Below are positions 7,518-64,000 of a DNA stretch of 64,000 bases, piece by piece (within the stretch, counting starts at the first letter, position 1; every line of letters begins with the position of its first letter). Under the pieces are notes generated by a model, which did no database searches, had not been told where the DNA came from, and was given only the letters and a program-made list of their open reading frames with translations. The stretch is from Ceratodon purpureus (taxonomy: Eukaryota > Streptophyta > Bryopsida > Pseudoditrichales > Ditrichaceae). Location of the stretch: the NCBI GenBank assembly GCA_014871385.1, contig CM026433.1, positions 7,451,930-7,515,929 on the forward strand, in the 5' to 3' direction. The translations under genes were made by a program, and so were the position numbers.

Positions 7518-7590
7518 GGGGAAAGTTCGTACGTGAGCGGAGAGCGTAGAGCGGAGAGCGGTGAGCGCAGAATGGAGAGCACAGAATTGA
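7518..7590 (+). repeat. Element 1 left terminal inverted repeat
   Basis: Starts GGGGAAAGTTC and continues with a 43-bp block (7529-7571) that is a perfect inverted match to 29060-29102. The block is itself built from GAGCGGAGAGCG-type short repeats. The outermost ~11 bp match the other end only loosely, so the exact first base is uncertain. Confidence 0.8.
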
Positions 7591-8287
7591 GAATTAGGAA
7601 AATTTTCAAAAGCAAAGTAGACCCTATAACCGTGGAAAATTACTAAATTAAGGCTTGATTTTGACACTTTTTTTAGAAAAATAGTGCATTACCGTGGAGA
7701 TTAGGATTATCTCTGGTAAGAATTTATTACGTTTGTTCTCTAAGATACAAATTAGGGCTGATGTCATGATGACGTCATGCATATATTTTGTTAGATTTCT
7801 CATGGATATAGGCAAGATATAATGATCAGGCGTTAAGTTCTAGATCAAACAATTAATTCTTTCATAGGTTTATGTAAATGCACAAGGAAAGAAACAACTT
7901 TCACAGAACATAAAGGAGGCAAGGTTTGAAAACTTCCTGGAATATTTCAAAATTCGTGTATAATATCTTAACTGCAGAAACCAAGATATACCTTGTTAGA
8001 GTCCTTGTCTTCATCGAAGATTACTCTCTCTTCGTAGGCAGCAAAGCATCTTCATTTCAGTGATACAAGTAGGAGATTTTCATCATCAAACAACACTTGG
8101 TAAGCTGGGTTCCAGAGAAGGAGGTCACTCTTGGTTTCTTGAGCTTGTCTCTAGATGGCGTATTTGGATAGTGACACAGTCCTTGGCATGCTGTGCTGTA
8201 TGCGAAGGTAGCGTAGGAGTTCGGGGATGTCAATCTGCAAGCTTGCCTGTAACGTTTTAAGAGTACAACAATTTAGTGTGTTGCGCG

Positions 8288-8659
8288 ATGCCGAAGGTGT
8301 GTAATGCGAGATCCAGGAGGACGAGAGCGGCTGTAGGTTTGCCCCCAAAGGCACCGGCGAGTTATGAGGAGCTGCGGCCGTGGCTGCTGGAGGTGGAGCG
8401 CGCCAGGGAACGAGGCATGGACCTGCCACCGTTTAGGCACATCGGAAGCCTCCATGTTGGTGAAGGTGAATGGCGTTGGACAGTGCTTTGTACCAATGAG
8501 CTTCTCCGTATTATGGAATTGTCCCTAATCCCGTATCCCTTGCTATCGAACGTCGATGACAATCCAGTTGTTCAGCTGCCCGAAGTGATCATATCGGATG
8601 GCGAAACTTGCTGGTTTGATATGGACAAGAGTTGGACTGTATATCCTTCGAAGGATTAG
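8288..8659 (+). CDS. Orphan ORF of element 1, unknown function
   Basis: A 123-codon frame from the ATG at 8288 (MPKVCNARSRR); an upstream in-frame ATG at 8276 is possible. The N-terminus is basic (ARSRRTRAA). The middle has PASYEELRPWLLEVERAR, a probable helix, then GEWRWTVLCTNELLRIMEL, and an acidic, aromatic C-terminus. No family recognised. It lies between the left terminus and the 3' end of the methyltransferase gene, on the opposite strand. No counterpart is visible in element 2, but the matching end of element 2 is outside the window. It may be one exon of a longer gene. Confidence 0.45.
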   Translation: MPKVCNARSRRTRAAVGLPPKAPASYEELRPWLLEVERARERGMDLPPFRHIGSLHVGEGEWRWTVLCTNELLRIMELSLIPYPLLSNVDDNPVVQLPEVIISDGETCWFDMDKSWTVYPSKD

Positions 8660-9172: not shown

Positions 9173-12100
9173 TCACAACATGCTACAGTCGCTACTTTCA
9201 CTCTCAGAACTAGATGACTCTGAATCTCCTTCTACCGCCTCATCATCGACGAATAGAAGGGCCCTGGGATCAAAAGTAGTTGGCCGAGTAGGAACATATG
9301 TAAGGGCTCCAGATTGAAACGCCTGTGCTAAGCCCTCTGCGTAGTCCGGAAGTATGAAAGGCTGAATCGGGCTGGAATGAAGACGCCACGATGGAGTGGA
9401 CACTGCTCTTGGCCCACGTGGCGGTGATGCAGAAACTACTCTGCAATAGAGAACCGATTGTGGTTAGATCTTGTACGTAGAGCTGGAAAGAGAAGTAATG
9501 CTTGGATAATGTGAACGAAGAATAAAAGACGTACACCACTTGTCAGGTCTTGCTCTCTTTGGAGGCGCTTCGCCTGTTGCTGCCGGCCTTGGATGTTTAG
9601 GAGGGCCCATGGCGGATGGTTTGAGAAGGGCGTTGAATATGGCTTCGTCCTCCTCAAAAGCGAGAATGTGACGACCAACAGCCTTGGCGGCCTTGATGGA
9701 GGCCCCTGAAACTCGAAGAGAAACAAAGAAATGAGAAACTTTGGAAAAAACGAGAGGAAAAATGAAGCAGAGATATGTAAGAGAGATACCTGTCCCAGCA
9801 TTCCAGTCAACGACTATGTCGTCGGGCTTGGACAGCTCCTCAATGATGTTCTGCATCATCTCAGGGGATTTCTCCCTTGGGCCTCTCCACGGCACCTCCC
9901 CATTCATGAGCTGAGATTCGGCATCGGTGAAGTTGAAAATGGCATCACTCTCGGTAATGTTGAGGAGCCCATGTATCAGGTCTTCCTTCTTCGTCTGGAA
10001 GGAGAAAGTACTGCCACTACGAACGTAGACGCGAATCCAGAACCGCATAGTCTGCAGTCAAGCAGAACTAGTGAGTAAAATTAAGCGGAAGGGTTATCAG
10101 TAAGCGAAGAGAAGGGCATGTTTAGGAAAAGTACCAAGTTCTCGGGGTTCGTAGGAGAAGTCAGGCCGAGTACATTGACACCCCACCAGTCCTTGAACAG
10201 CACGTATCCACCAGCAGCAGCTTCTTCCTCGATATCCTTAGCCAGCTTCTGATCAGTGTTGTAGATGAGGCAGATGGCACCATCTCTCTGCAGGAATTCA
10301 TCTGCAAAATGGAAGATGTCGTACAAATAATCCTTGTAGCGAGAGTTCCAAGGCGGAATACTCGTGGGGGGAATGGAAACGGATGGGACGGGAAGATTCT
10401 CAGGGATGTCGGCAATGATCAAGTCGACTCCCAGATGGTTCTCTTGTTTGCACCGGTCCGGAACTTCGTTTTCGCGGCCTGCTCCAAACTAGAGGAAACA
10501 AGAAAGGAGAGTTAGTAACTACATAGCGAGTAGAGTTGGCAGAATCCATTAGATGTCAAATTATAGGAACAAACCTTGCGAATGAAGTCTTGAGTCTTGA
10601 TCCAATCCGGGTCGCCCCCTTTATTCTCCTGTCTCCTATTTCGCCGTAACAAGGAATCCACAGATGAGTTGAAGACGGAAACATGTGTGGAAATCGAAGC
10701 TCCAGCTGAAGAAGTTGTTTGAGGATATAGTTTGGCCTTCCTCTGCTGAAGGAGACCTCTGGTGATCTCCGAAGCACTGATCGATGAAGGAGCCGGCGAA
10801 GAAGCTGGAGAAGGGTTGGTAACAACAACACCCGGAGACGGCTCTGGTGCCTTCTCAGCTGGCGCGGAAGACTCCGCACCAGTTTGCTGTGATGCCTCTG
10901 ACTGAGAACGCAGAGATTTCAGTCGCCTTCCTCTCCCTCTCTTCGGTGGTGGAGCAGAAGACTGATCCTGCTCTCCTTCACGACCTTCTGCATCATCCAC
11001 GGAGTCCTCCACCACAACCGTACCCCCATCGTGCAGCATCTTGACTTCCGCCTCGGAGTCAATAGTGAAACCACCAATACAATCAAGATACCAGCATCCA
11101 GCATCCAGGTGAGCAGGTTTGTACCTTTTTATCTGCTGAGGAGAGTACATACACTCGTCCGATGATGTCTGCGTCCAAAGCTTGAAGTACATGGGGAGTT
11201 GCTGAACGCTGATGGCCCCCTTCAAAACAAGCTCTCGCTTGAAGTACCTATGGGAAGACAAGAAGGAGGTAAGTATAAAAAACAATTACAAAGAAAACTA
11301 TGAAATGGAAATGAGATTAAGTAAGGTAATGTACCGGTAAGTAACGCGCTTGACAACTTGCGCGGTTCCCGGGAATTTAGCGAAGTTGGACTTCTTGTCG
11401 AAGTGCTTCTCAGCTTTTTTTCCAATGAACGTAGGGAAGGCCTTGTCCCACAAGAGAATACGTGAACTCTCGACAAAATCGCCCGGCTGTTGGACATCAG
11501 GAAACGCCATCCAATCGATATCGAGGTTCTCAGACTTGAATACATCTTCGACTTCGTGGATGACGGCTTCCTCCAACTGTAATACAAAATTCATATAAGT
11601 AGCATCGAAGAATGAATATGGTAAAAATTTAAAGGAACAAGGAATTGGAATGGATTTTTTATGAAAATTACCCCAGCCCAGAATGAAGCTTTGTTCAACC
11701 ATGGGTCGAATTCGGTGTCCTTGAATTCAGATGGCAGAAATCTGTAAGACGTTCGAGCACTGGGGGATGAGTTCCACCACTTCAACCAACGAGCCTTGTA
11801 TTTGGCCTCAACGGCCGCAGGAACAATCTTCTGAAGCTTATCCACTGACATCTCTGGCTTATTGTTGAGACTGAAATGGCGATTAATCTGCAAGAAGCAC
11901 CGAAGTTTGAAAAAGGTAAATACAGAAATTATGGAAGTCATGGGAAACAGTGAATTGAACAATGATCAGTGAGTCACCTCGTTGAGGAAGTCGTCACCAT
12001 TCTTGGGATTTGCAATGGCCAAGTACTTGGTAAAGTCCTTCTTCTTGATGGCTTCGACCATTCTCTCTGATGCCTCATTCATGACATCCCAAACTGCACT

Positions 12101-13917
12101 TGCAGACTGCTCATCCTCGGGTGTCTTCATGCGGTAGGCATTGGCTGCTTCATCGGAGGCCGCAGCGAGTTCCCGCTGTAGAAAGAGAATTCAGACTTAG
12201 GAAATTTCATGAGTATTGAATAATAAGAAGCAAATAGAGAGAGGATGTAGGACTTACTCGGTACAAAAATGCGATGAAAATTTTAGTTGTCAAGGGAAAC
12301 CAGGAGGGATTAGGTGGCTTGTTCTTCAAACATGCGTCATACTCTTCAGGACTGAGGAGGTCTTTGAATTCCTCCAGCTTCATAATTCCGAAAGAGCGGA
12401 TTCGAAATAGTTTTGCAGGGAGATTACTCTTGACGTGGTCATTCTCAGTCGACCTGAAAATGAACCAAAATCCGTATGATGAATAATAGAGATGAGATAA
12501 AGTAACAAAAGAAAAACAGGAAAAAAGAAACAAGTACTTACCAGTTGATGTCATGCATTGCGTGAAGAAGATTGCCAACATGGCCACGGGGATCGAGTAC
12601 TATGCAGTTCACAGATATGTGCCATGACGGGTCGTCTGCATGATGCTTGTTGATATGACGAAGCCATGCTGAGAGGCGATGGTTTCCTTCCCAGACAAAA
12701 AACATCTTCCCCGAGAATTGCGACCAGTCCTCGTCATTTAGAAGCTCAGATTCAAATGCATCATTCGCGTCCCTCCACAATGGGCTCCATTTAGCCATGA
12801 CCTCATCCGTAACATCTCGTGTCTGCTCTTCGTTGTTGTACATGGAGATGTACATGACGCGGTCGCCATCTCTATACCCCTTGACGAACTCCCGCTCCAA
12901 ATGCTGCACACCCACTTCGCCCACTGGTCTGACCTTTGCCATTGGGATCATCCTGCACAGGGGCACCGACATTCGGGACTTCTGCGATGGCTTGATCCTG
13001 AGCTTGTTGATGACGGCGTTGGTGTTCACCTTGTATAAGGTTTGATGTTCCAATTCCCCTTCTGTGGCAGTCTTCAAGTTTAACGGACAAGATGGTTTCA
13101 CCAACACATCTTGTGTTTGCGTAACCTGCCAGAAGGTACGCAAATTAGGAGAACAAGCACAATCGAAGAAAGTCATGCAAAGTAGACAAGTATGTAAAAG
13201 AAAGTAACAATATATCTTCATACTGTCATCTCTCTTTTAACAACTCAATCATCATCTGTGATTGATAAAACTATCTACGGGAGGATCGACTATAGTACTC
13301 CTTAGACTGTCTACAGTTCCAGTGACGGCGCCTCCTCCAAAATCGCCTGGTCTGTTGGACAGGGCACGGCAGAATTGCCGGCAGAGCAAAGACCACATGG
13401 GCTGGCCTCCTCACTCTAATCGGCGAGGAAGGAGAGGGTGGAGACATCGGCGGGGAGCCCTGTGGAGGAGACGTGGGCATATAGCCCGGGGAGGTTGGCT
13501 CATAAACCGGGGATGTAGGCATGTACACTGGAGAGGTAGGCATGTACACTGGCGAGGTAGGCATGTACTGAGGAGAGTGGACCTCGAGAGGTCCACTTTC
13601 CACACCTACAGGGTTGGCTACATCACAGGTACAATAAGGCTGATCAAATGAATCCGATAAATCGGAAACATTGATCACAGAAATGGGAGAGGTGGCGGAC
13701 ATCTCAGGAGCATCGGATGATACCTAGAGTAGAAGAAATGCAAATAGGATTAACTTCCATAATTAAAAGAGTAGGAAACAAAGAAGGGAAGAGGGCGAAT
13801 AGAATTGAAAATCATGAACAGAAAAAAAGAATATATATTGTAGATTGAATGAAATACCTCAGTTTCTGCTGGCGTAGGTTCTTCACGTTCGCTCCCCAGA
13901 TGATCACCATCAACGTC
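9173..13917 (-). CDS. Element 1 ParB-like/DNA methyltransferase-like protein, multi-exon
   Basis: Inferred exons on the minus strand: 13858-13917, 13723 to about 13300 (3' edge unclear), 12542-13125, 12258-12453, 11978-12175, 11672-11887, 11335-11576, 10575-11247, 10135-10488, 9790-10051, 9540-9705, 9173-9440; the intron edges read as GT and AG. The 12542-13125 exon ends in a ParB/sulfiredoxin-like module: PLCRMIPM, then MFFVWEGNHR (G-N-H-R codons 12676-12687) and an IVLDPRG strand. The C-terminus follows the N6/N4 methyltransferase order: VDLIIADIPENLP (motif IV position, 10399-10410), a D-G-A turn, PWRGPREKS (the usual HPTQKP position), DIVVDWNAGTG (motif I) and GRHILAFEED. Motif IV is DIPE rather than D/N/S-P-P-Y/F/W, so catalysis is doubtful. 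A P/S-rich linker lies in the 10575 exon. The tail shares F-I-L-P-x-Y-A-E with element 2. Upstream exons at 21978-22958 may belong to the same transcript. Confidence 0.72.
13463..13567 (-). repeat. Five Pol II CTD-like heptads encoded in tandem
   Basis: A 21-bp tandem repeat on the minus strand encodes YMPTSPV, YMPTSPV, YMPTSPV, YEPTSPG and YMPTSPP in one frame, followed by an S-P rich stretch (QGSPPMSPPSPSSP). The pattern Y-x-P-T-S-P-x matches the RNA polymerase II CTD consensus YSPTSPS at five of seven positions. The frame is continuous with an upstream exon (13858-13917) across a phase-0 intron, supporting that it is translated as part of the methyltransferase locus. The 3' splice junction of this exon was not resolved. 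Confidence 0.7.
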
Positions 13918-14019: not shown

Positions 14020-17000
14020 CAATGTTTAAGGATTTCTTTAATATTTTAATTATCAATAAAAACCTTTAAAAAATCAATAAAATCCATCAATAATTCAAAG
14101 AAAACTAAGCATTCTCAAGCAATCCAACCCAAGCAGCAGCAGCGACTGGAGAGAATAGTTACGAAATCTCACTTAATCAGCAGAAAAATTCAAAGAAATA
14201 AAAAAATGGAAACCATCCCCAAAGCAACCTCCACGCCCTCGGCCTACTGTCGTCAACGACAGTAGGTTTGAGGTTTTCTTTATTTTTTTAATTATCAATA
14301 AAAACTTTTAAAAAATCAATAAAATCCATTAAGAATTGAAAGAAAACAAATCATTCTAAAGCAATCCAGCCCAAGCAGCAGCAGCGACTGGAGATAATAG
14401 TTACGAAATTTCACTTAATCCACAGAAAAATTCAAAGAAATAAAAAAATGGAAACCATCCCCAAAGCAACCTTCACGCCCTCGGCCTACTGTCGTCAACG
14501 ACAGTAGGTTTGAGGTTTTCTTAATTTTTTTAATTATCATTAAAAACTTTTAAAAAATCAATAAAATCCCTTAAAAAAAAAAAAGAAAACAAATCATTCT
14601 AAACCAATCCAGCCCAAGCAGCAGCAGCGACTGGAGAGAATAGTTACGAAATTTCACTTAATCCACAGAAAAATTTAAAGAAATAAAAAAATGGAAACCA
14701 TCCCGAAAGCAACCCCCACGCCCTCTGCCTACTGTCGTCAACGACAGTAGGTTTGAGGTTTTCTTTATTTTTTTAATTATCAATAAAAACTTTTAAAAAA
14801 TCAATAAAATCCATTAAGAATTAAAAGAAAACAAATCATTCTAAAGCAATCCAGCCCAAGCAGCAGCAGCGACTGGAGATAATAGTTACGAAATTTCACT
14901 TAATCCACAGAAAAATTCAAAGAAATAAAAAAATGGAAACCATCCCCAAAGCAACCTTCACGCCCTCGGCCTACTGTCGTCAACGACAGTAGGTTTGAGG
15001 TTTTCTTTATTTTTTTAATTATCAATAAAAACTTTTAAAAAATCAATAAAATCCATTAAGAATTAAAAGAAAACAAATCATTCTAAAGCAATCCAGCCCA
15101 AGCAGCAGCAGCGACTGGAGATAATAGTTACGAAATTTCACTTAATCCACAGAAAAATTCAAAGAAATAAAAAAATGGAAACCATCCCCAAAGCAACCTT
15201 CACGCCCTCGGCCTACTGTCGTCAACGACAGTAGGTTTGAGGTTTTCTTTATTTTTTTAATTATCAATAAAAACTTTTAAAAAATCAATAAAATCCATTA
15301 AAAATTAAAAGAAAAGAAATCATTCTAAAGCAATCCAGCCCAAGCAGCAGCAGCGACTGGAGAGAATAGTTACGAAATTTCACTTAATCCACAGAAAAAT
15401 TCAAAGAAATAAAAAAATGGAAACCATCCCCAAAGCAACCCCCACGCCCTCTGCCTACTGTCGTCAACGACAGTAGGTTTGAGGTTTTCTTTCTTTTTTT
15501 TAATTATCTATAAAAACTTTTAAAAAATTAATAAAATCCATTAAAAATTTAAAGAAAACAAATCATTCTCAAGCAATCCAGCCCAAGCTGCAGCAGCGAC
15601 TGGAGAGAATAGTAACGAAATTTCACTTAATCAACTGAAAAATTCAAAGAAAATAAAAAAATAGAAACCATCCCCAAAGCAACCCCCACGCCCTCGGCCT
15701 ACTGTCGTCAACGACAGTAGGTTTGGGGATTTCTTTAATTTTTTAATTATCAATAAAAACTTTTTAAAAATCAATAAAATCCATTAAAATTTAAAAGAAG
15801 ATAAAAATAATACTCAAAATCTACAAAATATTCAAAATTTAATTAAGAAGATGTGAGCAATGATGAAGTTCATTATCACACAATGCCACCAAAAAAAAGA
15901 AAAAATAAATAAAAAAATAAAATTCTCGAATTTTTTGAAGTGCCCCCGGCCTACTGTCGTTGACGACAGTAGGTTTGGGGTATTTTCAAAAATTCAAAAT
16001 AAAAAATAAATATCAAGGAAATACTGGAAATCAACCAATAATTCAGATTTTAATTCACAAATTTTGAGCAATTATTCATTTCATTATCACACAATGTCAC
16101 CAACAAATGAAATAAAGTGAATCAAATATAAAATCCCCGAATTCATTGAGGTGCCCCAAACCTACTGTCGTTGACGACAGTAGGTTTGGGGTTTTTCAAA
16201 TATTCAAAATAAAAGAAATAAATCAAGAAAATACCAAAAATCTACGAGATTTCAGATTTTAATCAACAAATTGTGAGCAATTATGCATTTCATTATCACA
16301 CAATATCACCAACAAAAGAAATAAAGACAAACAAATATAAAATCCCCGAATTCATTGAAGTGCCTCAAATCTACTGTCGTTGACGACAGTAGGTTTGGGG
16401 TTTTTCAAATATTCAAAATAAATGAAATAAATGAAGAAAATACCGAATAACACAAAAAATTACCAAAGTTTGGGAGACAAACACATTGACATAACACAAA
16501 AATCCAAATAGAAAATAAAAAATAAAAAAACTCGCACAAATCCCCAAAGTAAAATCCATGCCTCCGGCCTACTGTCGTCAACGACAGTAGGTTTGAGGTT
16601 TTCTTAATTTTTTTAATTATCAATAAAAACTTTTAAAAAATCAATAAAATCCATTAAAAAAAAAAAAAAAACAAATCATTCTAAAGCAATCCAGCCCAAG
16701 CAGCAGCAGCGACTGGAGAGAATAGTTACGAAATTTCACTTAATCCACAGAAAAATTTAAAGAAATAAAAAAATGGAAACCATCCCCAAAGCAACCCCCA
16801 CGCCCTCTGCCTACTGTCGTCAACGACAGTAGGTTTGAGGTTTTCTTAATTTTTTTAATTATCAATAAAAACTTTTGAAAAATCAATAAAATCCCTTAAA
16901 AAAAAAAAGAAAACAAATCATTCTAAACCAATTCAGCCCAAGCAGCAGCAGCGACTGGAGAGAATAGTAACGAAATTTCACTTAATCCACAGAAAAATTC

Positions 17001-20000
17001 AAAGAAATAAAAAAATGGAAACCATCCCCAAAGCAACCCCCACGCCCTCTGCCTACTGTCGTCAACGACAGTAGGTTTGAGGTTTTCTTTATTTTTTTAA
17101 TTATCAATAAAAACTTTTAAAAAATCAATAAAATCCCTTAAAAAAAAAAAAAAAAACAAATCATTCTAAACCAATCCAGCCCAAGCAGCAGCAGCGACTG
17201 GAGAGAATAGTTACGAAATTTCACTTAATCCACAGAAAAATTTAAAGAAATAAAAAAATGGAAACCATCCCCAAAGCAACCCCCACGCCCTCTGCCTACT
17301 GTCGTCAACGACAGTAGGTTTGAGGTTTTCTTTATTTTTTTAATTATCAATAAAAACTTTTAAAAAATCAATAAAATCCATTAAAAATTAAAAGAAAACA
17401 AATCATTCTAAAGCAATCCAGCCCAAGCAGCAGTAGCGACTGGAGAGAATAGTTACGAAATTTCACTTAATCCACAGAAAAATTCAAAGAAATAAACAAA
17501 TGGAAACCATCCCCAAAGCAACCCCCACGCCCTCTGCCTACTGTCGTCAACGACAGTAGGTTTGAGGTTTTCTTAATTTTTTTAATTATCAATAAAAACT
17601 TTTAAAAAATCAATAAAATCCATTAAAAAAAAAAAGAAAACAAATCATTCTAAACCAATCCAGCCCAAGCAGCAGCAGCGACTGGAGAGAATAGTTACGA
17701 AATTTCACTTAATCCACAGAAAAATTCAAAGAAATAAACAAATGGAAACCATCCCCAAAGCAACCCCCACGCCCTCTGCCTACTGTCGTCAACGACAGTA
17801 GGTTTGAGGTTTTCTTTATTTTTTTAATTATCATTAAAAACTTTTAAAAAATCAATAAAATCCCTTAAAAAAAAAAAGAAAACAAATCATTCTAAACCAA
17901 TCCAGCCCAAGCAGCAGCAGCGACTGGAGAGAATAGTTACGAAATTTCACTTAATCCACAGAAAAATTTAAAGAAATAAAAAAATGGAAACCATCCTGAA
18001 AGCAACCCCCACGCCCTCTGCCTACTGTCGTCAACGACAGTAGGTTTGAGGTTTTCTTAATTTTTTTAATTATCAATAAAAACTTTTAAAAAATCAATAA
18101 AATCCATTAAAAATTAAAAGAAAACAAATCATTCTAAAGCAATCCAGCCCAAGCAGCAGCAGCGACTGGAGAGAATAGTTACGAAATTTCACTTAATCCA
18201 CAGAAAAATTCAAAGAAATAAACAAATGGAAACCATCCCCAAAGCAACCCCCACGCCCTCTGCCTACTGTCGTCAACGACAGTAGGTTTGAGGTTTTCTT
18301 AATTTTTTTAATTATCAATAAAAACTTTTAAAAAATCAATAAAATCCATTAAAAAAAAAAAGAAAACAAATCATTCTAAACCAATCCAGCCCAAGCAGCA
18401 GCAGCGACTGGAGAGAATAGTTACGAAATTTCACTTAATCCACAGAAAAATTCAAAGAAATAAACAAATGGAAACCATCCCCAATGCAACCTTCACGCCC
18501 TCGGCCTACTGTCGTCAACGACAGTAGGTTTGAGGTTTTCTTAATTTTTTTAATTATCATTAAAAACTTTTAAAAAATCAATAAAATCCCTTAAAAAAAA
18601 AAAGAAAACAAATCATTCTAAACCAATCCAGCCCAAGCAGCAGCAGCGACTGGAGAGAATAGTTACGAAATTTCACTTAATCCACAGAAAAATTTAAAGA
18701 AATAAAAAAATGGAAACCATCCCGAAAGCAACCCCCACGCCCTCTGCCTACTGTCGTCAACGACAGTAGGTTTGAGGTTTTCTTTATTTTTTTAATTATC
18801 AATAAAAACTTTTAAAAAATCAATAAAATCCATTAAAAATTAAAAGAAAACAAATCATTCTAAAGCAATCCAGCCCAAGCAGCAGCAGCGACTGGAGAGA
18901 ATAGTTACGAAATTTCACTTAATCCACAGAAAAATTCAAAGAAATAAACAAATGGAAACCATCCCCAAAGCAACCCCCACGCCCTCTGCCTACTGTCGTC
19001 AACGACAGTAGGTTTGAGGTTTTCTTAATTTTTTTAATTATCAATAAAAACTTTTAAAAAATCAATAAAATCCATTAAAAAAAAAAAGAAAACAAATCAT
19101 TCTAAAGCAATCCAGCCCAAGCAGCAGCAGCGACTGGAGAGAATAGTTACGAAATTTCACTTAATCCACAGAAAAATTTAAAGAAATAAAAAAATGGAAA
19201 CCATCCCCAAAGCAACCCCCACGCCCTCTGCCTACTGTCGTCAACGACAGTAGGTTTGAGGTTTTCTTAATTTTTTTAATTATCAATAAAAACTTTTAAA
19301 AAATCAATAAAATCCATTAAAAAAAAAAAGAAAACAAATCATTCTAAACCAATCCAGCCCAAGCAGCAGCAGCGACTGGAGAGAATAGTTACGAAATTTC
19401 ACTTAATCCACAGAAAAATTCAAAGAAATAAAAAAATGGAAACCATCCCCAAAGCAACCCCCACGCCCTCTGCCTACTGTCGTCAACGACAGTAGGTTTG
19501 AGGTTTTCTTAATTTTTTTAATTATCAATAAAAACTTTTAAAAAATCAATAAAATCCATTAAAAAAAAAAAGAAAACAAATCATTCTAAAGCAATCCAGC
19601 CCAAGCAGCAGCAGCGACTGGAGAGAATAGTTACGAAATTTCACTTAATCCACAGAAAAATTTAAAGAAATAAAAAAATGGAAACCATCCCCAAAGCAAC
19701 CCCCACGCCCTCTGCCTACTGTCGTCAACGACAGTAGGTTTGAGGTTTTCTTAATTTTTTTAATTATCAATAAAAACTTTTAAAAAATCAATAAAATCCA
19801 TTAAAAAAAAAAAAGAAAACAAATCATTCTAAACCAATCCAGCCCAAGCAGCAGCAGCGACTGGAGAGAATAGTTACGAAATTTCACTTAATCCACAGAA
19901 AAATTCAAAGAAATAAACAAATGGAAACCATCCCCAAAGCAACCCCCACGCCCTCTGCCTACTGTCGTCAACGACAGTAGGTTTGAGGTTTTCTTAATTT

Positions 20001-27942: not shown

Positions 27943-28219
27943 AACTGCTGTCCCGCAGTACGGAAAAGAGCTTCACAAAACACCAACAGAAAAGAGGAAG
28001 AGACATTCCATAATCCTAACTTAAATATCCGTGAAGGAGATGCTTGGCGCCCTTGAAAATCGGATATTCATTCATTTGGAAGTTGCATCTTCCTCAACTG
28101 AATGGAAAAGGATGAGGGTTGAGCAGAAGTCATTTAGCTTTTAAAATTTAAAAATAATAAAAAAAATTAAAAAAAAATTATAAAAGCAAAAAGGAAAAAA
28201 AGCAAAAATAAATATTAAG

Positions 28220-29039: not shown

Positions 29040-29113
29040 TGTGCTCTCCGCTCTCCAAATCTGCGCTCACCGCTCTCCGCTCTACGCTCTCCGCTCACGT
29101 ACAAGCTACGTCC
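29040..29113 (-). repeat. Element 1 right terminal inverted repeat
   Basis: Inverted copy of the left terminus: 29060-29102 is the exact reverse complement of 7529-7571. The outer end on the minus strand reads GGACGTAGCTTGTACG, against GGGGAAAGTTCGTACG on the left. Confidence 0.8.
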
Positions 29114-32708: not shown

Positions 32709-32719
32709 GGTGAACAAAA

Positions 32720-50320: not shown

Positions 50321-50324
50321 TCAG

Positions 50325-50510
50325 CGAAGCTATCTTGTGAGCAGCGAGCGGGAGCAGAGAGCAGTGGAGCCGTTTTTGACGTTTTTCTTTTTTTTTTTTT
50401 TGAAAAACGCTCCGTTTTTTGACCTAATTTTGAAATTTTTTGGAATTTTTGACGAATTTGGACATAAATTACTAAAATTAGTAAAGGACCTATCACCGTG
50501 GAATTCCGTG
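50325..50510 (+). repeat. Element 2 left terminal inverted repeat (diverged)
   Basis: GAGCGGGAGCAGAGAGCAGTGGAGC-type short repeats at 50341-50372 parallel the GAGCGGAGAGCG repeats of element 1. The downstream 'ttactaaaattagtaaa' and CCTATCACCGTGGAA blocks match the inner part of the element 1 right end. The outermost base is not fixed because the partner end is not in the window. Confidence 0.6.
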
Positions 50511-54100: not shown

Positions 54101-54766
54101 CTCTGACCTAGACCCTTTGCGCTTTGCCGTCGCTTTAATGGCATCGAGGATACTACGACGTTTCTTCGTGTTTGGATGAGCTGGGGGACGACCAGAGGAG
54201 ACTGACGGAGATCGTCTTAAGCTGCCTATTGGTAGAGACCGAGTGGAGCCAATACTTGTACGTTGTACAAAGGAGGTGACCTTTGTATCAGCTATATTGA
54301 TATCCGGAAAAGTGTCATCGTCAGAATCACTAATGACATGGACCTCAGGATTCTCGACTTTCACTCTCACTAACGCTGGGACTTGGACTGTTGACGTTGA
54401 GGACGGAGGAGTCAGAACGACTGTTGACATCGACATGTCAGAATCAGACAAACCATAAACCTTAAACGTGCCGCTCGACAAAGTCCAGAAATAACCCTCT
54501 TCATCTCTAGACCTGGTCTGCAAAATGGTCTCACTTAGTTCTCCGCTATCATCATAAATCTCTCTCTCCACGTACATTGACCCAATTCTAAAGTTGAACC
54601 TAAGACTAAGCAGTTGCTCCGGAATGGTAACTGTGCCGTCCTCCCCTAAGGGTGCTGTGAAGGGCGTCGCTCTACCATGTGCACGTAGAGACGCCATCCT
54701 TAGAGCCTGGAAGAAGATGGGAGTGGTACAGTCGTGCATTACAGAGAACAAGAAGGAAGAGGCCAC
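51148..54766 (-). CDS. Element 2 MULE-like transposase with an in-frame stop
   Basis: Exon 1 is 52598-54766 and exon 2 is 51148-52506 (GT-AG intron at the same place as in element 1). Total is about 1175 codons, homologous over most of its length to the element 1 transposase. Conserved parts: SUMO-type VKVENPEVHVISDSDDD; a zinc region (CTGHLQCPNPAC, CKLC, GVHDHPV); the core FDHVKRVKKWSTMACHVYD, FMADSAGANWHAV and CLFHWTKC; and the SWIM finger C-x-C ... YCKHMYYVL in exon 2. Near the end of exon 1 the frame reads NDWMVF, TAG (52637-52639), HYRYRQWGG, where element 1 has WLSFWHHRFRQWGG. A single G-to-A change of a Trp codon therefore interrupts the protein just before the intron. Probably inactive unless read through or spliced around. 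Confidence 0.85.
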
Positions 54767-54780
54767 AGTAGATGACTTGA

Positions 54781-55343
54781 AGGAATGAATTGGGGAAGGA
54801 CTTGGAGCTTCATATACAATAACTCCTTGCTTAAATTATAATTGTCGTTGTAGCATACTTAGGATGTTAGGTGCATACATGATTCCCTCTGCCAGGTGTC
54901 CAGTTTAGGAGGGTTAAATCAGACAGGCATCCTGTAAGTTCTAAATTATGAGTGTCCTAATTCAAGATTACAGACGAAATGTCTGGGTTGAGAAACGACT
55001 TTCGGATCCGAGAGTACATGAGTCATGTAAACTATTTTCCTCCAGATACGATATTAGTGCGCGGGTATCCAGAAGACTCTGCATAAATGAGCCATTAAGT
55101 GGACACAGTTCCTTTACCATTTACGGAATCTATGTACTTGGATTACTGTCGTGGATATTCTTAGAGAGGCCTGTGACGGCGATGGTCAGGAATATGAATG
55201 CACTTTCCGATCATTCTGTTGATAATATTAATTTGGAATAAAGACTTTCCACCACGATTAAAACTGACGAATGAGGTTAAGAGCATATTGATCGAATACG
55301 CAGGCAAATGTATTAATATTAAAGCCTTAAAAGGGAAAGAGAA
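54781..55343. other. Spacer with one TCGGATCCGA site
   Basis: Non-coding DNA between the transposase start and the HAYSKVG gene; it holds the transposase promoter. A single palindrome core (ctttcggatccgagag) occurs near 55000. Confidence 0.5.
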
Positions 55344-55823
55344 TTACAGCCTCTTATATCGCTTGCAAGGGCCGTCCTTGCGGTCTACACTTATTGCATC
55401 AGCGGAATTCTCAGTTCCACGATTGATATTGTTGGGTATGGGTAAGGACCTACAGCCTGGCGTGCTAAGTTTAGGACCTCTACGCCTATGTGTCCCACTA
55501 AACATTGTCCTGTGGTATGTTCCACGTGGGATAACTCCTACCTTCGAATAGGCGTGAGTCCTCGACGCTTCTGGAGCAGGCGTCAATCTCATATTGCCGT
55601 CCTCCACGTGGTCATCGGATGGATGAATCGCTTCATTTTCCACAATGTCTTCCACGGGCTGGAACAGAGTAGCCGCATCTCCGGAGACGTTGGTAATCCC
55701 GGCTTCAACATCTATGAGTGGATCAAACGGTCCATGAAGATCATCCAGAGAAACGATTTCGTCTGTGGCAGGTTCCTTCGTTGCTGCACTGTCCGCAAAC
55801 TTCATCTGCATTACATGAGTCAT
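55344..55823 (-). CDS. Element 2 HAYSKVG small nuclear-type protein
   Basis: A 159-residue frame (MTHVMQMKFADSAATKEP). The acidic N-terminal half contains EIVSLDD, parallel to DIVVSLADD in element 1. It then has HAYSKVGVIPRGTYHR, RRRGPKL, and a basic end CKRYKRL. It is homologous to 27490-27942. It lies upstream of, and on the same strand as, the transposase, about 580 bp from its start, so the gene has moved relative to the transposase between the two elements. No function recognised; charge pattern suggests nuclear location and possible nucleic-acid binding. Confidence 0.72.
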   Translation of the reverse strand: MTHVMQMKFADSAATKEPATDEIVSLDDLHGPFDPLIDVEAGITNVSGDAATLFQPVEDIVENEAIHPSDDHVEDGNMRLTPAPEASRTHAYSKVGVIPRGTYHRTMFSGTHRRRGPKLSTPGCRSLPIPNNINRGTENSADAISVDRKDGPCKRYKRL

Positions 55824-55859
55824 ATTCGAATTCTACGGCCGTTTAGCAACGAGAGCTGA

Positions 55860-56123
55860 CATAAAGAGAGCCATAGAAGTGATTCAACTTCTGATTTTAT
55901 AGTGCTCGTATCGGCGACATGGTACCGCCGCCGATTGCAGTCTAATCCTAGATCTGGAATCAAGGTGATATTTACGGGTAGGTTAATTAAAGTGTTTTGA
56001 ATCGCCAAGTAGTTCAGTACTCAGAGGTAGTATAAGAGCTTAGATTGATAAGGTACATTTTATTCTTTAAATCTGCGCTTAAGTTCTGTGTCTAGATTGG
56101 TGCGTTGAGTCTATGTCATACAC
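55860..56123. promoter_or_regulatory. Probable divergent promoter of element 2
   Basis: A 260-bp spacer between the minus-strand HAYSKVG gene and the plus-strand basic/acidic exon at 56124. The head-to-head layout parallels 22959-23469 of element 1. No specific box assigned. Confidence 0.4.
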
Positions 56124-57134
56124 ATGAGGGAAAGGAAAGGGAGAAAGTTAGTAGTTCTAGAATCGATTACTAGTCCTGAGAAGAAGGATGGGCACGAAAA
56201 TATATCAGGTGTACCTAAAGGCAAGAGGGTTGCAATAGCTAGGAAGAAACAAAAGAAATTGCTAGAGGAGGTGGACACTCTAGTTAGGTCGTTAACGTTT
56301 GAGGATTGTACTGACGAGGGAGTTAGTAAACGACCGCTGCGAAGGGTCTCAGATATTTTAGAGGAGGGGCCCAAGTGCCACTCAATTGAAGTGGAGACAC
56401 CAATTATCGCAGCGGTTGCACCTGAGGTGCTGGACGTCACTTCAGCGGTTCCCGAAGAGGTGCATGATGGCGTAGTAGAGGCAATACTCGAGCTTGGGGG
56501 CATGGAAGAGACTTGCGGCTCACTTCTCCCTGGTCGCGGATTGGGCTGCGTGGGCGGGAAGGTCGCGAGTAGCTTCCCACTTGAGGACTTAGAGGTATAA
56601 GAAGGGCTCATCTGCACTCATTCTGTCCCTCTTGCTGCGCGACTTGTCTTATCTCCTCATTCTTCCCTACTCTTTGCCCTTCTCCTTCTCTCTGTTGTAG
56701 GAATCCTCTGGGCCGCGGAGGCAAGGTATATGAACCCCCACTTCAGATGCTTCATTTGCGTGCTTTCTTTTGTGCTTGGTTATGTTGGGTTGTTTTCTAT
56801 TGTCTGCGTTCTTTGTGAAATCTTAGTTAGCTTTTTGTGACGGCTGTGTTTAGGGTTAGGGCTGTGAGGGTACCTTGGTTCGCTGGGTATAAGAGCTATG
56901 ACTGGGAGGAAGAAGGGAAGGGTTCAGAAACCAGAGTCTAGTATTGTGCTAAGTGAGTCTGGGAGTAGTGACGAGGGGGACAGAAAAAAGATGAAGGGTT
57001 TAAGCATTGGCGCGGCGCAGGGTTCTGGAGGGTCGAAGAAGGTGAAGAAAGGAGGAACCTCGAAGAAGATGAATACACCAGGATCAGCGTCTGCAGCTTC
57101 AAGGTCCGCGATGGAGGAAGAAGTCGCGGAAGAG
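56124..57134 (+). CDS. Putative N-terminal exons of the element 2 methyltransferase gene
   Basis: Exon A 56124-56594 (MRERKGRKLVVLES...; donor GAG|GTATAAG), a possible 25-nt exon 56701-56725 after the acceptor 'ctgttgtag', and an open stretch 56898-57134 (MTGRKKGRVQKPESSIVLSE; donor GAG|GTATGG). Exon A has basic patches (RKGRK, ARKKQKK) then is acidic and valine-rich. The 56898 stretch is K/S/G-rich, with ESGSSDEGDRKKMK. The location, same strand and upstream of the ParB exons with a satellite between, mirrors 21978-22958 of element 1. Joining to downstream exons is inferred, and the 56898 ATG could instead start a separate transcript. Confidence 0.45.
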
Positions 57135-57179: not shown

Positions 57180-58390
57180 AAAGAGCAGAGAGAGAGGAGG
57201 CAGGGGAGGGTGCGGAAGAGGGAGGAGGTGTGTAAGGAGGGAGAGATTGGGGTTGTTGGGGGGAAAGAGGAGGGGGAGGAAGGGACCTTCGGATCCGAAG
57301 GTCCCTTTCTCCCCCTCCTCTTTCCCTCCCACAGCATAGAGAAAGGAGGGAGAAGAGGGTGAGGGAGAGGGGAGGAGAGTGGGAAGGAGGGGAAGATTGG
57401 GACTATGGGAGGGAAAGTGGAGGGGGAGGAAGGGACCTTCGGATCCGAAGGTCCCTTTCTCCCCCTCCTCTTTCCCTCCCACAGCATAGAGAAAGGAGGG
57501 AGAAGAGGGTGAGGGAGAGGGGAGGAGAGTGGGAAGGAGGGGAAGATTGGGACTATGGGAGGGAAAGTGGAGGGGGAGGAAGGGACCTTCGGATCCGAAG
57601 GTCCCTTTCTCCCCCTCCACTTTCCCTCCCACAGCAGAGAGAATGCTGGGAGAAGAGGGTGAGGGAGAGGGGAGGAGAGTGGGAAGGAGGGGCAGATTGG
57701 GACTATGGGAGGGAAAGTGGAGGGGGAGAAAGGGACCTTCGGATCCGAAGGTCCCTTTCTCCCCCTCTCCTTTCCCTCCCACAGCAGAGAGAATGCTGGG
57801 AGAAGAGGGTGAGGGAGAGGGGAGGAGAGTGGGAAGGAGGGGCAGATTGGGACTATAGGAGGGAAAGTGGAGGGGGAGAAAGGGACCTTCGGATCCGAAG
57901 GTCCCTTCCTCCCCCTCCACTTTCCCTCCCACAGCAGAGAGAAAGGAGGGAGAAGAGGGTGAGGGAGAGGGGAGGAGAGTGGGAAGGAGGGGAAGATTGG
58001 GACTATGGGAGGGAAAGTGGAGGGGGAGGAAGGGACCTTCGGATCCGAAGGTCCCTTTCTCCCCCTCCACTTTCCCTCCCACAGCAGAGAGAATGCTGGG
58101 AGAAGAGGGTGAGGGAGAGGGGAGGAGAGTGGGAAGGAGGGGCAGATTGGGACTATGGGAGGGAAAGTGGAGGGGGAGAAAGGGACCTTCGGATCCGAAG
58201 GTCCCTTTCTCCCCCTCTCCTTTCCCTCCCACAGCAGAGAGATAGGACGGAGAGGAGGGTGAGGGAGAGGAAGGTGAGGGAGAGGAGGGTGAGGGAGAGG
58301 AGGGTGAGGGAGAGGGGAGGAGAGTGGATACTGGAGGGGGAAGCCGAGAGGAGCGACGGAAAGAGTAGCAGCAAGAGCAAAAACAGCTAG
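57180..58390. repeat. 150-bp tandem array centred on CCTTCGGATCCGAAGG
   Basis: Seven palindromes at 57288, 57438, 57588, 57738, 57888, 58038 and 58188, exactly 150 bp apart. Around the core the inverted symmetry extends far: at 57738 it is perfect for about 46 bp (GGGGGAGAAAGGGACC on the left arm) and near-perfect beyond. The rest is G/A-rich 'gggagaagagggtgagg'. It is followed by GGTGAGGGAGAGG 15-bp repeats (58258-58320). Because 150 is divisible by three, long frames run through on both strands; they are not taken as genes. The position mirrors the satellite of element 1. Confidence 0.95.
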
Positions 58391-58668: not shown

Positions 58669-61600
58669 GAGTCTGAGATTGTACCCATGGATGTGGAGGG
58701 AGCTGAAGAAGAAGAAGAGCCATCAGAAGACCGTGGAGTTCATTATACGGTTGCGAAATTGAGGCAGAAACGTGCTGGAAACTCACACATCGTCCTTAAT
58801 GAATCGGTGGAGCAGCCGATTGGGGAGTTGGATATTCCGCTTTGTAGGATGGTGGCAATGACAGATGTACGAAGTCCTCTATTGAAAGATATTGCGAAGC
58901 TGCAGGCGGAATTTGCTACTGGCTACAGGCGAGGTGGACCGTGCTTCTATGTGTCTCTTCATAGTTATGCATTGCAGACACAGGAGGAAACAGACGAGAT
59001 TAGAGCCGGGTGGTCAGACACTTGGAAGAATGCTGAGAAGACATTCGAAGACCAATGCCAAGCTATTCCGGAATTGAGAATCTTCTCAAACAAAATGTTC
59101 TTCATTTGGGATGGGAATCATAGATTCAAGGCTTGGATGGAGGAGATTCATCAGTTTCATTATGACGACCCTGATTTCCATCCGGCAGTGAAGTCAATCG
59201 TGTTGCGCGTTTCCGAAGAAAACAATCAGCAGCTATTAAATGCGATGACTCATTGGAACAAGTGAGTGTCTTGAAATACGGCTTTTTGCATTCTTCTTTA
59301 TTAAATGAGTAGTGGTGCTAACGATTTACTGTTGCAGGAAGAACGAAGTCGACCATGTCGAACAGCATTGGACTCATGAATTACGCCGAATCATACAGTT
59401 CGGCACTATGCCCTTCGAGACGTTAAAGACCATTCTTCCCAAACGGGACTATGCAGCTAGTGTTGCGGAGTGGGAAAAGGTGACCAAGAAGAAGAAGAAG
59501 TGGTACCATATGACAGCAGATGCCTTTTGCAACTTCTTGTATGGGGTACTGAACAAACCTACCTCCGTGATTTTATGATTTATCGTTTGATTATATGTCA
59601 TTTTAATGTGTGCTTTATGTACTCTACAGAGGGAAATCAATATGGCGGAGGACGCTGCGATTCAACAGTACGAGGACACGCTGCTGAAGTACGAGGGGAA
59701 AGCCCTGGAAGGCTCATCTATTGACTTGAAGAAAAAATCTGAAGAAGCTATCGCGGCTTGCAAAAAGAAGTTGCACACCAATATGGACCGCTTGCTTGCC
59801 ATCGCGGACCCCGCAAATGGCGAGGGATTCATCGATGAGGTATCTCGATTCACTTATCCAATGTACTTTCGGATCCGAGAGTAGTTTTGTAGTGCGACAG
59901 AGTTGTTGTTTTCTTAGGCTAACTCTCAAATTTTAAATGAAAGTAGATGCAGCCCAATGTACTTTCGGATCCGAGAGTAGTTTTGCAGTATAACAAAGTT
60001 GTTGTTTTCTTAGGCTAACTCTCAAATTTTAAATGAAAGTAGATGCAGCCCAATGTACTTTCGGATCCGAGAGTAGTTTTGCAATGCGTCAGAGTTGGTG
60101 TTTTCTTAAGCCAATTCTCAAATTTTAAATGAAAGTAGATGCAGCCCAATGTACTTTCGGATCCGAGAGTAGTTTTGCAGTGTGACAGAGTTGTTGTTTT
60201 CTTAGGCTAATTCTCATATTTGAAATGAAAGTAGATGCAGCCCAATGTATTTTGGGATCCGAGAGTAGTTTTGCAGTATGACAGAGTTGTTGTTTTCGTA
60301 GGCTAATTCTTAATTTTAAAATGAAAGTAGATGCAGCCCAATGTACTTTCGGATCCGAGAGTAGTTCTGTGGAACTGGATATTTACTTTAATTCTCGATA
60401 AACAGCCCTAATTTCAGCCTAGTTCAAATCATCACCATTTAATTCAGGTTGTGTTTGATTAAATGGTCAGCTTATGATGTTATTGACTTTATTAATGAAT
60501 ATTTTGATGTTGTTGGACAGATTATTGCGCATTACAATTGTAATATGTCTCAGCCGGAGATGAGTCCAGAGAAGCTTCAGTTGATAGCGACCGCCAAAGT
60601 TCCGGCCCAGTACAAGCAACGATGGTTAAAATGGTGGAATATGAGCAAGGATGGACGACAGGCCAACAACTTTCCAGAGCAACCTTGCGCTACTACCCAA
60701 CTGAGACCATGGGTGGAAACTGCTTCCTTCTACGCGGGCGTAAGTTCTCGGTAACATATTCTTGATATTTAAAAAAAAAATCTACCTCCAGGGGTACTTT
60801 CGGATCCGAAAGTCCTTTTGGAGGGGGCTATTACTAACTCCAAAAACTTGTAGGTCGTCAATTCCTGTACCCATTAGAGTTGTATAAATCAAATTCCTGC
60901 AGGGTCAAGAGTACTTTCGGATCCGAGAGTCCTTTCGGAGAAGGCTGTTTTACCTCCCAAAACACATAGGTCGTCAATTTCTATACCCATTTTTTATTCA
61001 GAGAGAATAATTTTTGCACTGCCCAGGGTACTTTCGGATCCGAGAGTGCATTTGGAGGGGCCGAAATTTTACTAATCTTCTGGAGTTTGATGCAGCTTGA
61101 GGAAGAAGCAGGAAATATTTATAACAATATCATTGATGAAGACAATCTCCAGATTCCGCGCCCGGGATTTGAGGGATCCATTGTTGACATCCGGAAATTC
61201 GTTCTTGACGGAAGCCAGATAATCTGGAAGAAAGGCTATCCGGATCTGGTTGGGAAGCCCTCAAAATTTAATAAGCAGAAGGAGTTTCTGGAGTGGGAGA
61301 ATACAAAGGAAGCCGCGTGCAGGGTTGTGGTGAGGTACTTTCAGCAGGAGTTGTTGAAGAAAGGGGCAATTGCCGAAGACCAATTTCCAGCTCGTTTCAG
61401 GAAATGGTTGGACACGGCAAGCGAGGACTGCATTTTTACACCAAGCCAGCGACGCGATTTCACGAGGCCGCACCTTCATCGGTGCCCTTGGTACATTGAG
61501 CTCAAGCCTGGAGACCGTTGCCCAGATCATGAGCTGGAGACATTCGCCATCTGCAAGAGGGAGACTGAGGAGATGAAGTCTAAAGGCCTGGACCTTGCGA

Positions 61601-63349
61601 ATGCAGATGCGCTATTGAATCTGACTGAACAGCAGCGGAAGAAGATGTCCAAAAAGCTTGAACGTGAAGAGCAGAGGGCAAAAGCAAAGGCTGAGAAGAA
61701 GGAAAAGGAGAGGGCGGAATCCACCAGACGGAAGGAAGAGAAGCTCATATTTCTCACTCAAGCCAAGAAGGTAAAGGAAATGGGCTTGAAGAAGGTTGCT
61801 GAGGATGAAGGTATTTCACCTTCTGGCAGTAGCATACCTTCTGATAGTATTCACGGGACATCTAGCTTGCCTTCGCAATCTGTCTACACCATCAAGACTC
61901 AAGATTCGGCGGAAGACAATGCGGAAATCCTCATTCTGAACGAGAGTGCCACGAGTATCTTCGACGAGTTCGAGGTCGAGTCGATTGCTGAAGAGGGCAA
62001 GAAGCCGCCGCTGTATTCGAAGATTCTGAGCTTTGTGCAGGAACATCAAGGACGTAAGCATCGGACATACAAGGGGCGGGAATCAAACGAGTGCGTGGAC
62101 CTTATTATTTGTGACGTGCCGGAGGGCTTACCTGTTCCTGGATTCCCACCTGCGAAGGAGGTTCCTATCTGGAATCAGCTGCTCATTACTAGAGATGAGG
62201 ATGGAAATAAGGAGGCGAAGTGGATCAGGCATGCTTTCGAGTTTGCAAATGAGTGGCTCAGCGACGATGGGGGTTTCCTTGTCATGTACCCGGATTCTGA
62301 GTATATCACCAACGAGATCTCAGCATGGGCGAGATGGTCGAACTTCAAGGTGGAGATGAAGTCGATCGTGACGAACAATATGCCTCTCACTAAGCCGGAT
62401 TTTGTTGGGAAGTATGTTGAATACTTTGTTATGAAGCTGTTCGTTAGGCAGGAAAACCGCGAGGAGTCTATTCCGGATGCGAACTTCCGTTACAACCCTC
62501 AAAGCCAGCTCCTGGATCAAGGTGTAGATCTTATCAACAAAGGGCTGGTTACTAATTGCATATCCGAGGAATCTATTACGAAACAACGGCGTTCCGGAAT
62601 TCCTTGGCGAGGGGCTCGGGAGAAATCAGACAATTTGCTTCTGGCTCTAATTGACCTCTGCACCGAAGAAGAAGACATTGTTGTCGACCTTTCAGCATCC
62701 ACAGGTGACATATCTATTCCGCGCCGATGATGATGTTTTATGGAATTCCTTATAATGATTTTTGCTCTTAGTACTAAATGTAAGGTTGTATCAGGTGCAT
62801 CCATTCGAGCTTGCAGAGGTCTCTATCGTCATATTGTGGCACTGGAGGCGGACGAGGATCTTTACCAGGAAGTTCTTCTTCAATATCAGAGCTCCGATGA
62901 AGAAGACTCTCCTCCACCGACCCCTCCATCTCCTCCAAGACGTCCCCCTTCTAAAGTTATAATGGAACCAGAGGTCAAGAGGGCACCGAAACGCAAATGT
63001 GAGTAAGTCCATATCTCCATACTTTAGCAGTTTGTAGTATTCAAATTTCGGTGGAGTTCTTTGCTAATTTCCTTTCTGGCAATGCAGATGGGAAATAAGA
63101 AACAAAACATCCAGAGAGGGGAGTTCATTTCGCAGAGCAGTGGAGAGGATTTCTAGCCCTGAAAGGTCATTCATATTACCTTCGTATGCAGAACAAGCCG
63201 CTCAGACCTTGGCATTGGCTCCATCTCCCTTCCCTTCAGAGAAGACACCATGTCTAGAATCTCGTGCTGTTGAGAGATATTTAGACATATATGCTAGTGA
63301 GGAGCACGTCCCATTCCTGGACACTGTGGAAGATGACCGTCGAGCATAA
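58669..63349 (+). CDS. Element 2 ParB-like/DNA methyltransferase-like protein
   Basis: Exons 58669-59261, 59338-59545, 59630-59839, 60521-60739, 61096-62704, 62795-63002, 63088-63349 encode about 1100 residues, plus possible upstream exons. The first exon has ELDIPLCRMVAMTDVR and MFFIWDGNHRFKAW (G-N-H-R at 59113-59124), a ParB/sulfiredoxin-like signature. The long exon has a charged, probably coiled-coil lysine/glutamate stretch (61640-61760), then VDLIICDVPEGLP (motif IV position, 62113-62124), SDDGGFLVMYPDS, PWRGAREKS and DIVVDLSASTG, completed by GASIRACRGLYRHIVALEAD in the next exon. This order (IV, X-like, I) is that of beta-type N6/N4 DNA methyltransferases. DVPE replaces D-P-P-Y, as DIPE does in element 1. 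Splice sites coincide with those of element 1 at several positions. All exons are open. Confidence 0.78.
59860..60365. repeat. ~96-bp intronic tandem array with TTTCGGATCCGAGA
   Basis: Six units with cores at about 59869, 59965, 60061, 60157, 60253 (mutated: ttttgggatcc) and 60349. Each unit reads 'gatgcagcccaatgtac', core, 'gtagttttgcag', 'ttgttgttttcttaggc'. It lies in the intron between exons 59630-59839 and 60521-60739 of the methyltransferase gene. Confidence 0.93.
60790..61050. repeat. Three further TTTCGGATCCGA sites in the next intron
   Basis: Cores at about 60798 (perfect ACTTTCGGATCCGAAAGT), 60915 and 61033, each followed by 'cctttnggag' and 'ggctnttt', about 117 bp apart. They lie in the intron between exons 60521-60739 and 61096-62704, and form a separate, degenerate tandem set. 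Confidence 0.88.
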
Positions 63350-64000
63350 ACCTGTAGATATTGGACTACTTGTGTGCATATTTTGTAATATTTGCCACAT
63401 GAACACTTATGCTTTCATCTTCGAACACTTATTGATTCTAATCAAAAGTGCTACTTCACATGCCAATTTGTAATGTCTGCTATTTTGGATGTCTGATTTA
63501 AATTAATCTTCATAGTTTTTATTGGTACAAAATAATGAATGTTTTAAATTCAGTTTGAGATCTCTGAATCATCCTTCGGATCCGCATGTCCATTTCATTT
63601 CATCCTTTTAACATTTAGTTTAATTTATCTTTTACAGTTTCCTTAAAATATGCCGACTTATTTTAAATTAGTTTTTTGCAATCAAATTTGTTTTTACGTT
63701 AATAATTTATTAATTATTAAGGCCCATATATCTGGAAAGGAGTGAAAAGGGGGGTTGGGAAAACAGTTCTCGGATCCGAGAACCGTTTCCGGACCCCCCT
63801 TTTCTCCACCCTCCACTCATCCCCTTCCCCCCAACTACCCTCCTATCCCTTCCTTTCCCCCTCCCATCTCTCCTCCCTCTCCCTCTTCCCCCCTTCCCCT
63901 CTCCCCCCTCTCCCTCTCCTAAACCCTTCCGCTCTCCTCCTCTCCCTCTCCCCCCCTTCCCCTCTCCCCCCTCTCCATCTCCCCCCCTTCCCCTCTCCCC
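63350..64000. other. Element 2 right arm: palindromes and C/T-rich low complexity
   Basis: 3' flank of the methyltransferase gene. A core 'ccttcggatccg' lies near 63573. A hairpin at about 63740-63812 has 'gttctcggatccgagaac' (63766-63783) at its apex, with arms gaaaaggggggt/accccccttttc. From about 63815 to the window end the sequence is C/T-only repeats (ccctctcccc). No gene seen; the terminus is not reached. Confidence 0.7.

Follow-up and report, generated by a model that had tools for sequence, protein, structure and literature searches.

Giant intron-bearing transposons of the moss Ceratodon purpureus pair a MULE-like transposase with a ParB-methyltransferase-like protein

The closest described counterpart of the system considered here comes from a brown alga. 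Sola1-1_Ec32, a 21.5-kb transposon of Ectocarpus, encodes a ParB plus N4/N6-methyltransferase protein of 1104 amino acids (aa) for which self-methylation has been suggested, and green and red algal cases of ParB-methyltransferase proteins in transposons are cited in the same paper (PMC12477816, accessible part). In prokaryotes a ParB domain is fused to an adenine methylase in Bce_0392 of Bacillus cereus, where the ParB domain is reported to nick DNA, and ParB/sulfiredoxin domains elsewhere are reported to be nucleotide-regulated nucleases (PMC5512222, accessible part). Here we describe two elements, 1 and 2, in 64,000 nucleotides of the moss Ceratodon purpureus (assembly GCA_014871385.1, contig CM026433.1, positions 7,451,930 to 7,515,929 of the forward strand; this whole stretch is called the window and its first letter is position 1). 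Both exceed 20 kb, and each carries a spliced transposase gene together with a ParB-methyltransferase-like gene of approximately 1,050-1,100 aa. On balance we consider it probable that these are giant, intron-bearing MULE (IS256-like) transposons helped by the ParB-methyltransferase protein as an accessory factor that binds DNA.

As far as the published description of the algal element goes, the likeness lies in a protein of approximately 1,100 aa with ParB-like and N4/N6-methyltransferase parts, carried by a DNA transposon of approximately 21 kb and transcribed opposite to the transposase, while the moss elements differ in their land-plant host, in a transposase of MULE/IS256 rather than Sola type and in the presence of palindrome arrays (PMC12477816, accessible part). 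The catalytic motif is changed in the moss proteins; the comparison with the algal proteins is again by published description. With Bce_0392-type fusions and other ParB/sulfiredoxin nucleases the moss protein shares the union of a ParB domain with a domain of adenine-methylase type, but it is approximately 1,100 aa long and spliced, has a long middle region between the domains and has its catalytic motif replaced (PMC5512222, accessible part). An initial annotation of the window, made from the sequence, knew of no described eukaryotic transposon with exactly this cargo, a view that the algal reports show to be partly wrong. Among the records listed by a search of the literature, there was no report of a ParB-methyltransferase protein in a land plant or a MULE, an absence that is weak given that most subscription papers and bioRxiv lay outside the search. 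As far as searched, four features are new: the host is a land plant, the transposase is of MULE type, the change in the catalytic motif is conserved, and the palindrome arrays are lineage-specific.

Element 1 spans 7518-29113 (21,596 bp). Its inverted arms (7524-7571 and 29060-29107), which lie within terminal inverted repeats at 7518-7571 (+) and 29060-29113 (-), are 96% complementary, and the 10-mer CCCATCATGA is found on both flanks, at 7508-7517 and 29114-29123. This 10-bp target-site duplication stands six bases outside each arm and therefore fixes the borders of the element. The start at 7518 agrees with the initial annotation, whose span of 7518-64000 ended merely at the window edge. 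Element 2 begins at 50322 with a left terminal inverted repeat (CAGCGAAGCTATCTTGTGAGC..., 50322-50375, +, inner border approximate) that matches the right end in inverted orientation, the termini reading CAG...CTG. That right end, the recovery of which had been called for, was found outside the window. The 10-bp duplication here is TCTTCAAAAT, the left copy at 50312-50321 and the right copy outside the window; the length of the element, about 25.6 kb, is approximate because a stretch of N lies between the window edge and the right end. An acidic open reading frame (ORF) of 217 aa (L033) was also seen just inside this right end, outside the window, and no counterpart of it was identified. Contig C2 holds a second element 2 copy, which ends in these termini too and is flanked by a 10-bp duplication of its own, TATTTGCGGT. 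Identity between the two copies is 99.4% over the first 3 kb (2,975/2,992 aligned bases) and reaches 98.7% and 99.3% in the two transposase exons, 98.8% in a small gene named HAYSKVG and 99% in the ParB exon. Element 2 and the C2 copy are whole elements that have recently moved.

The two elements of the window share three genes, as the initial annotation had proposed. The transposase gene lies at 23461-27235 (+) in element 1 (exons 23461-25635 and 25742-27235) and at 51148-54835 (-) in element 2 (exons 54835-52598 and 52506-51148), with 46.5% identity over 1,111 aligned residues. In element 1 it is open to the terminal stop, its start codon not being settled; in element 2 a single in-frame stop interrupts exon 1 close to its end, and exon 1 of the C2 copy contains no stop. 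The ParB-methyltransferase-like gene was found as 10 exons encoding 1,055 aa at 9173-13125 (-) in element 1, with 5' exons uncertain, and as seven exons encoding 1,102 aa at 58669-63349 (+) in element 2; all introns are GT-AG, and identity is 32% over 1,008 aligned residues. A first exon of the element 2 gene may lie at 56898-57134 (+), where an open frame with a GT donor in phase 0 fits the exon at 58669. In element 1, splice-site reading points to possible upstream exons, of this gene or of another, at 13271-13917 (-). At 13271-13723 (-), immediately upstream of the ParB exon of element 1, heptads were noticed that resemble the C-terminal domain repeats of RNA polymerase II (Y-M-P-T-S-P-V); this stretch could be an N-terminal exon of the gene. 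HAYSKVG itself was matched between the elements by tblastn (E 1.3e-8) and by an alignment score of 116, against a maximum of 57 among 300 shuffles. Its placement differs: in element 1 (27490-27972, -) it follows the transposase and is encoded on the other strand, and in element 2 (55344-55832, -) upstream of the transposase on the same strand. A further pair of ORFs, 22476-23006 and 56109-56600, was rejected as a gene common to both elements (score 49, shuffle maximum 73).

The ParB identity of the larger accessory protein was examined at its GNHR region. In fold searches with a predicted model of this region (pLDDT, predicted local distance difference test, 87), ParB, Noc, KorB and Srx led both searches, and among the matches listed G-x-H-R with the conserved arginine is present in 116/120 homologues. 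The region is therefore predicted to fold as a ParB/sulfiredoxin domain, the outcome that the initial annotation had expected of a structural check. Pfam searches with 53 ParB-exon relatives gave no match to ParB_N and chance-level matches only, for example CB_ParB_C at E 0.089 in one of them, and it is therefore by its fold and its motif that the region is identified as ParB-like. ParB proteins can act as CTP-driven clamps.

The C-terminus, by its sequence, is homologous to adenine methyltransferases of CcrM/DpnA type (beta-class, with motif IV before motif I), again in line with the initial annotation. The spliced element 1 protein matches PF01555 (N6_N4_Mtase) at E 4.2e-8, above the gathering score, and element 2 at E 3.8e-4, below it. 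A profile built from four sequences (element 1, element 2 and the relatives L001 and P0055) matches DpnA over 56 positions (4.3e-5) and CcrM along the domain (0.0031, positions 3-225); the NCBIfam CcrM model is matched by three of the four profile members, far under its cut-off, and the best match among PHROG methyltransferases is 1.2e-9. The sequences compared depart from CcrM and DpnA in the catalytic DPPY and in motif I. The CcrM D-P-P-Y aligns with D-V-P-E, and no distinct sequence conforms to [DNS]PP[YFW]: D[VI]PE is present in five of six (DIPE in element 1 and four further copies; DVPE in element 2, L001, P0055 and P0057) and YVPE in the sixth, P0056. P0054, a near-copy of element 2, was left out of this count. 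Motif I is near-normal in element 1 (DWNAGTG) and altered in element 2, L001 and P0055 (DLSASTG, DITASTG and DLTTTTG). The aromatic residue of DPPY stacks on the flipped base, and its loss from 6/6 distinct sequences predicts weak or no methylation; that the protein is an active methyltransferase is accordingly doubtful.

These observations bear on the strongest alternative, namely that the protein is an active N6-adenine/N4-cytosine methyltransferase that marks its own element DNA, for example at the internal palindromes described below, and in this way evades silencing or regulates transposition. Self-methylation has been proposed for the algal relatives (PMC12477816, accessible part). The homology of the domain to CcrM and DpnA, the presence of GATC inside the element 2 palindrome and the near-normal motif I of element 1 are all consistent with such an activity, but the replacement of DPPY, the altered motif I of the other three sequences and a weaker constraint on the methyltransferase exons tested (see below) argue against it, and we regard it as possible though unlikely.

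Both elements contain palindrome arrays. In element 1 an array of repeats of approximately 242 bp (14024-21416) holds a 24-bp interrupted palindrome of 11-2-11 form, with 29 matches to CCTACTGTCGT[CT][AG]ACGACAGTAGG that start between 14243 and 21169; another element 1-type copy has 36 palindromes in one 8-kb piece and five in the next. In element 2 a 150-bp repeat array (57184-58270) carries the palindrome TCGGATCCGA, of which there are 22 copies in the part of the element that lies in the window. In certain copies the palindrome reaches 28 or 48 bp; the window outside element 2 is free of it. Further repeats with this palindrome occur in introns of the ParB-methyltransferase-like gene (59858-60366 and 60788-61047), and the exon at 56898-57134, if real, would place the array itself in intron 1. 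The palindrome of one element differs in sequence from that of the other; both fit the pattern TCG-N4-CGA, perhaps by chance. Besides the array itself, introns and the neighbourhood of the left end hold palindromes as well. Of the common layout put forward in the initial annotation, the presence of an array in both elements holds; HAYSKVG is placed differently in each, and the palindromes are unlike in sequence and not limited to the array. The palindromes are candidate binding sites of the ParB-methyltransferase protein. A more elaborate, parS-like system may be imagined, in which the palindromes are loaded by the ParB/sulfiredoxin clamp with the catalytically dead methyltransferase as DNA reader, the resulting nucleoprotein body pairs the ends or spatially addresses these 20-plus-kb MULEs, and palindrome and reader have evolved together in each lineage; this we hold to be a speculative and rather improbable extension.

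Several lines of evidence indicate that the gene set is old. Where elements 1 and 2 have identical residues, 76-78% of the fourfold sites differ, which amounts to saturation. Second codon positions differ at 35-44%; the figures point to an old divergence with both proteins under constraint. For each of the six introns in the ParB-methyltransferase model of element 2, element 1 has an intron of equal phase whose position agrees to within one residue, a match that is partly built in because the exon borders of each element were set by eye with the sequence of the other in view. A better check is provided by L001 and four other genomic copies. The L001 gene is 41% identical to that of element 2 over 1,079 aligned residues and has five introns exactly at element 2 positions and phases, its last exon junction being ambiguous with three readings, and all 10 exons of the element 1 gene (10/10) were recovered in the four genomic copies. 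L001 is contig CADCWO010000058.1 (1-4691), which is binned in an uncultured cyanobacterial metagenome-assembled genome and holds a spliced, eukaryote-like ParB-methyltransferase gene; the contig is probably eukaryotic contamination of that genome.

The initial annotation regarded capture of a prokaryotic module as a plausible origin; a recent capture from a phage or bacterium was set aside. Introns shared with a foreign third copy, L001, and the existence of many relatives speak for an old eukaryotic family instead. Scans of viral contigs gave 137 stretches that matched the transposase pattern and 29 that matched the ParB pattern, with no relative among either, and a scan of genome contigs with ParB gave 83 stretches and one relative, L001 itself. 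A tblastn search of phages with the first 939 of 1,055 residues of the element 1 protein returned 153 records; in all of the 20 listed the match is confined to the methyltransferase part, and 18 carry an annotation as methylases; no ParB-methyltransferase pair is present among the matches listed.

The family is numerous in the moss genome, whose 151 contigs total 362.5 Mb, with copies both on a large contig of 110.5 Mb and on others. The element 2-type ParB exon was scored at no fewer than 150 places, drawn from 1,870 candidates of a first look; none of the 150 has an E value above 1.8e-37, and 20 of these, element 2 itself included, are at least 93% identical across the exon. At least 62 places were scored for the element 1 transposase exon (3,066 candidates), again counting element 1; all are at least 95% identical and 50/62 are without a stop. 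Linkage was examined in nine further copies hand-picked from the two lists, and both large genes are present in eight. The ParB-methyltransferase gene stands on the expected side of all four transposases of element 1 type (L036, L037, L039 and, beyond a longer palindrome array, L038/L044), and four of five element 2-type ParB copies are accompanied by the transposase (L034, L040, L042, L043). The fifth, on C8, has no transposase of its own within approximately 14.6 kb. At this locus (C8:5315500-5330100; L041, L045, L046) an element 1-type transposase fragment (91%) lies upstream of the ParB copy, and a nested or rearranged element is possible. A comparison of the two lists, 150 ParB and 62 transposase places, gave three pairs within 30 kb where 1.5 are expected, and this speaks neither for nor against linkage because the lists hold different lineages. 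The contigs of P0013, a transposase relative, and P0095, a ParB relative, are both listed with a length of 674,632, which is suggestive only.

Purifying selection on the ParB-methyltransferase gene was shown in both lineages. For the ParB exon, 18 other copies set against element 2 of the window give a pooled ratio of nonsynonymous to synonymous differences per site (pN/pS) of 0.20, each copy being compared with one reference rather than on a tree and five copies with stops being counted in. For the whole element 1 gene the four copies give 0.26, 0.08, 0.24 and 0.29, with ten gap-free exons and a terminal stop as the sole stop. The two methyltransferase exons tested have a pooled pN/pS of 0.50 and in L036 an excess of nonsynonymous changes (14/481 against 2/134), and the methyltransferase part is thus less constrained. 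Such selection bears on the proposal that the gene plays no part in transposition and is carried along through linkage as a passenger or a selfish helper. In its favour, the stop in the element 2 transposase means that elements may persist through the help of other copies; against it stand the selection across copies, the retention of the gene across saturated synonymous divergence and its presence in eight of the nine copies examined, and we judge the proposal improbable. The claim that the gene set has been kept together over a long divergence is thus upheld.

The class of the elements was assessed from the transposase, the termini and the target sites. With the AlphaFold model of element 1 transposase exon 1, the IS256-type transposase ISCth4 ranks first in both fold searches, and the model has an RNase-H-like DDE core of IS256/MULE type, one D lying in the first strand and another following the fourth. 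The IS256 family is the bacterial kin of MULEs. MULEs duplicate 8-11 bp of target, which fits the 10 bp seen at all three insertions, and the typical MULE transposase has a WRKY/GCM-like zinc region and a C-terminal SWIM zinc finger; Sola, EnSpm and KDZ elements duplicate fewer than 10 bp. The moss elements thus share with MULE/Mutator and IS256 elements the core, the long inverted ends and the 10-bp duplications, and differ from them in a length of more than 21 kb, in introns in both large genes, in a large accessory gene and in the curated MULE profiles, none of which matches above its cut-off (Transposase_mut matches weakly, E 0.034, in 2/21 transposase members). The designation as plant DNA transposons with a MULE-like transposase is borne out by these features. 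Membership of another large superfamily (KDZ, Sola or EnSpm) that only resembles MULE would accord with the lack of a profile match above cut-off and with the giant KDZ, EnSpm and Sola-1 elements with accessory genes reported in Ectocarpus (PMC12477816, accessible part), but is made very improbable by the rank of ISCth4 and by the length of the duplications.

A number of other features were noted in the window. For a small ORF close to the left end of element 1 (8261-8659, +), the right part of element 2, so far as it is readable, gave no counterpart. A LINE-like pair of long open frames (1431 and 603 aa; 623-6726, -) adjoins element 1 and seems intact, its label being putative and from reading. 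Reading likewise gave putative labels to ORFs for a quinone oxidoreductase fragment (32304-32720), a copia-type retrotransposon tail (36442-37170), a PLATZ-type protein (41727-42389) and a HAD-type hydrolase (46839-47423).

If the elements are MULE-type transposons with a DNA-binding helper, a working model can be outlined. The DDE transposase, to judge from its family and from the duplications, would cut and paste the element. The ParB-methyltransferase protein may load onto the DNA of its own element, perhaps at the internal palindromes, its ParB/sulfiredoxin domain working as a nucleotide-dependent clamp or as a nicking domain and its methyltransferase fold, with the DPPY aromatic lost, mainly recognising DNA instead of methylating it. 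Such loading could promote pairing between two ends that lie more than 20 kb apart or could shield the element from silencing, and in either case transposase and ParB-methyltransferase protein may cooperate.

A puzzling prokaryote-like protein pair, in print only for algal transposons as far as searched, is here seen in a land plant and alongside a transposase of a different family. The conserved loss of DPPY makes the published guess of self-methylation directly testable, the lineage-specific palindromes offer candidate binding sites, and a moss with recently moved, near-identical copies would be a workable laboratory system. The presence of the module in a land plant with a different transposase suggests that giant DNA transposons in general may be helped by it, whatever their type of transposase.

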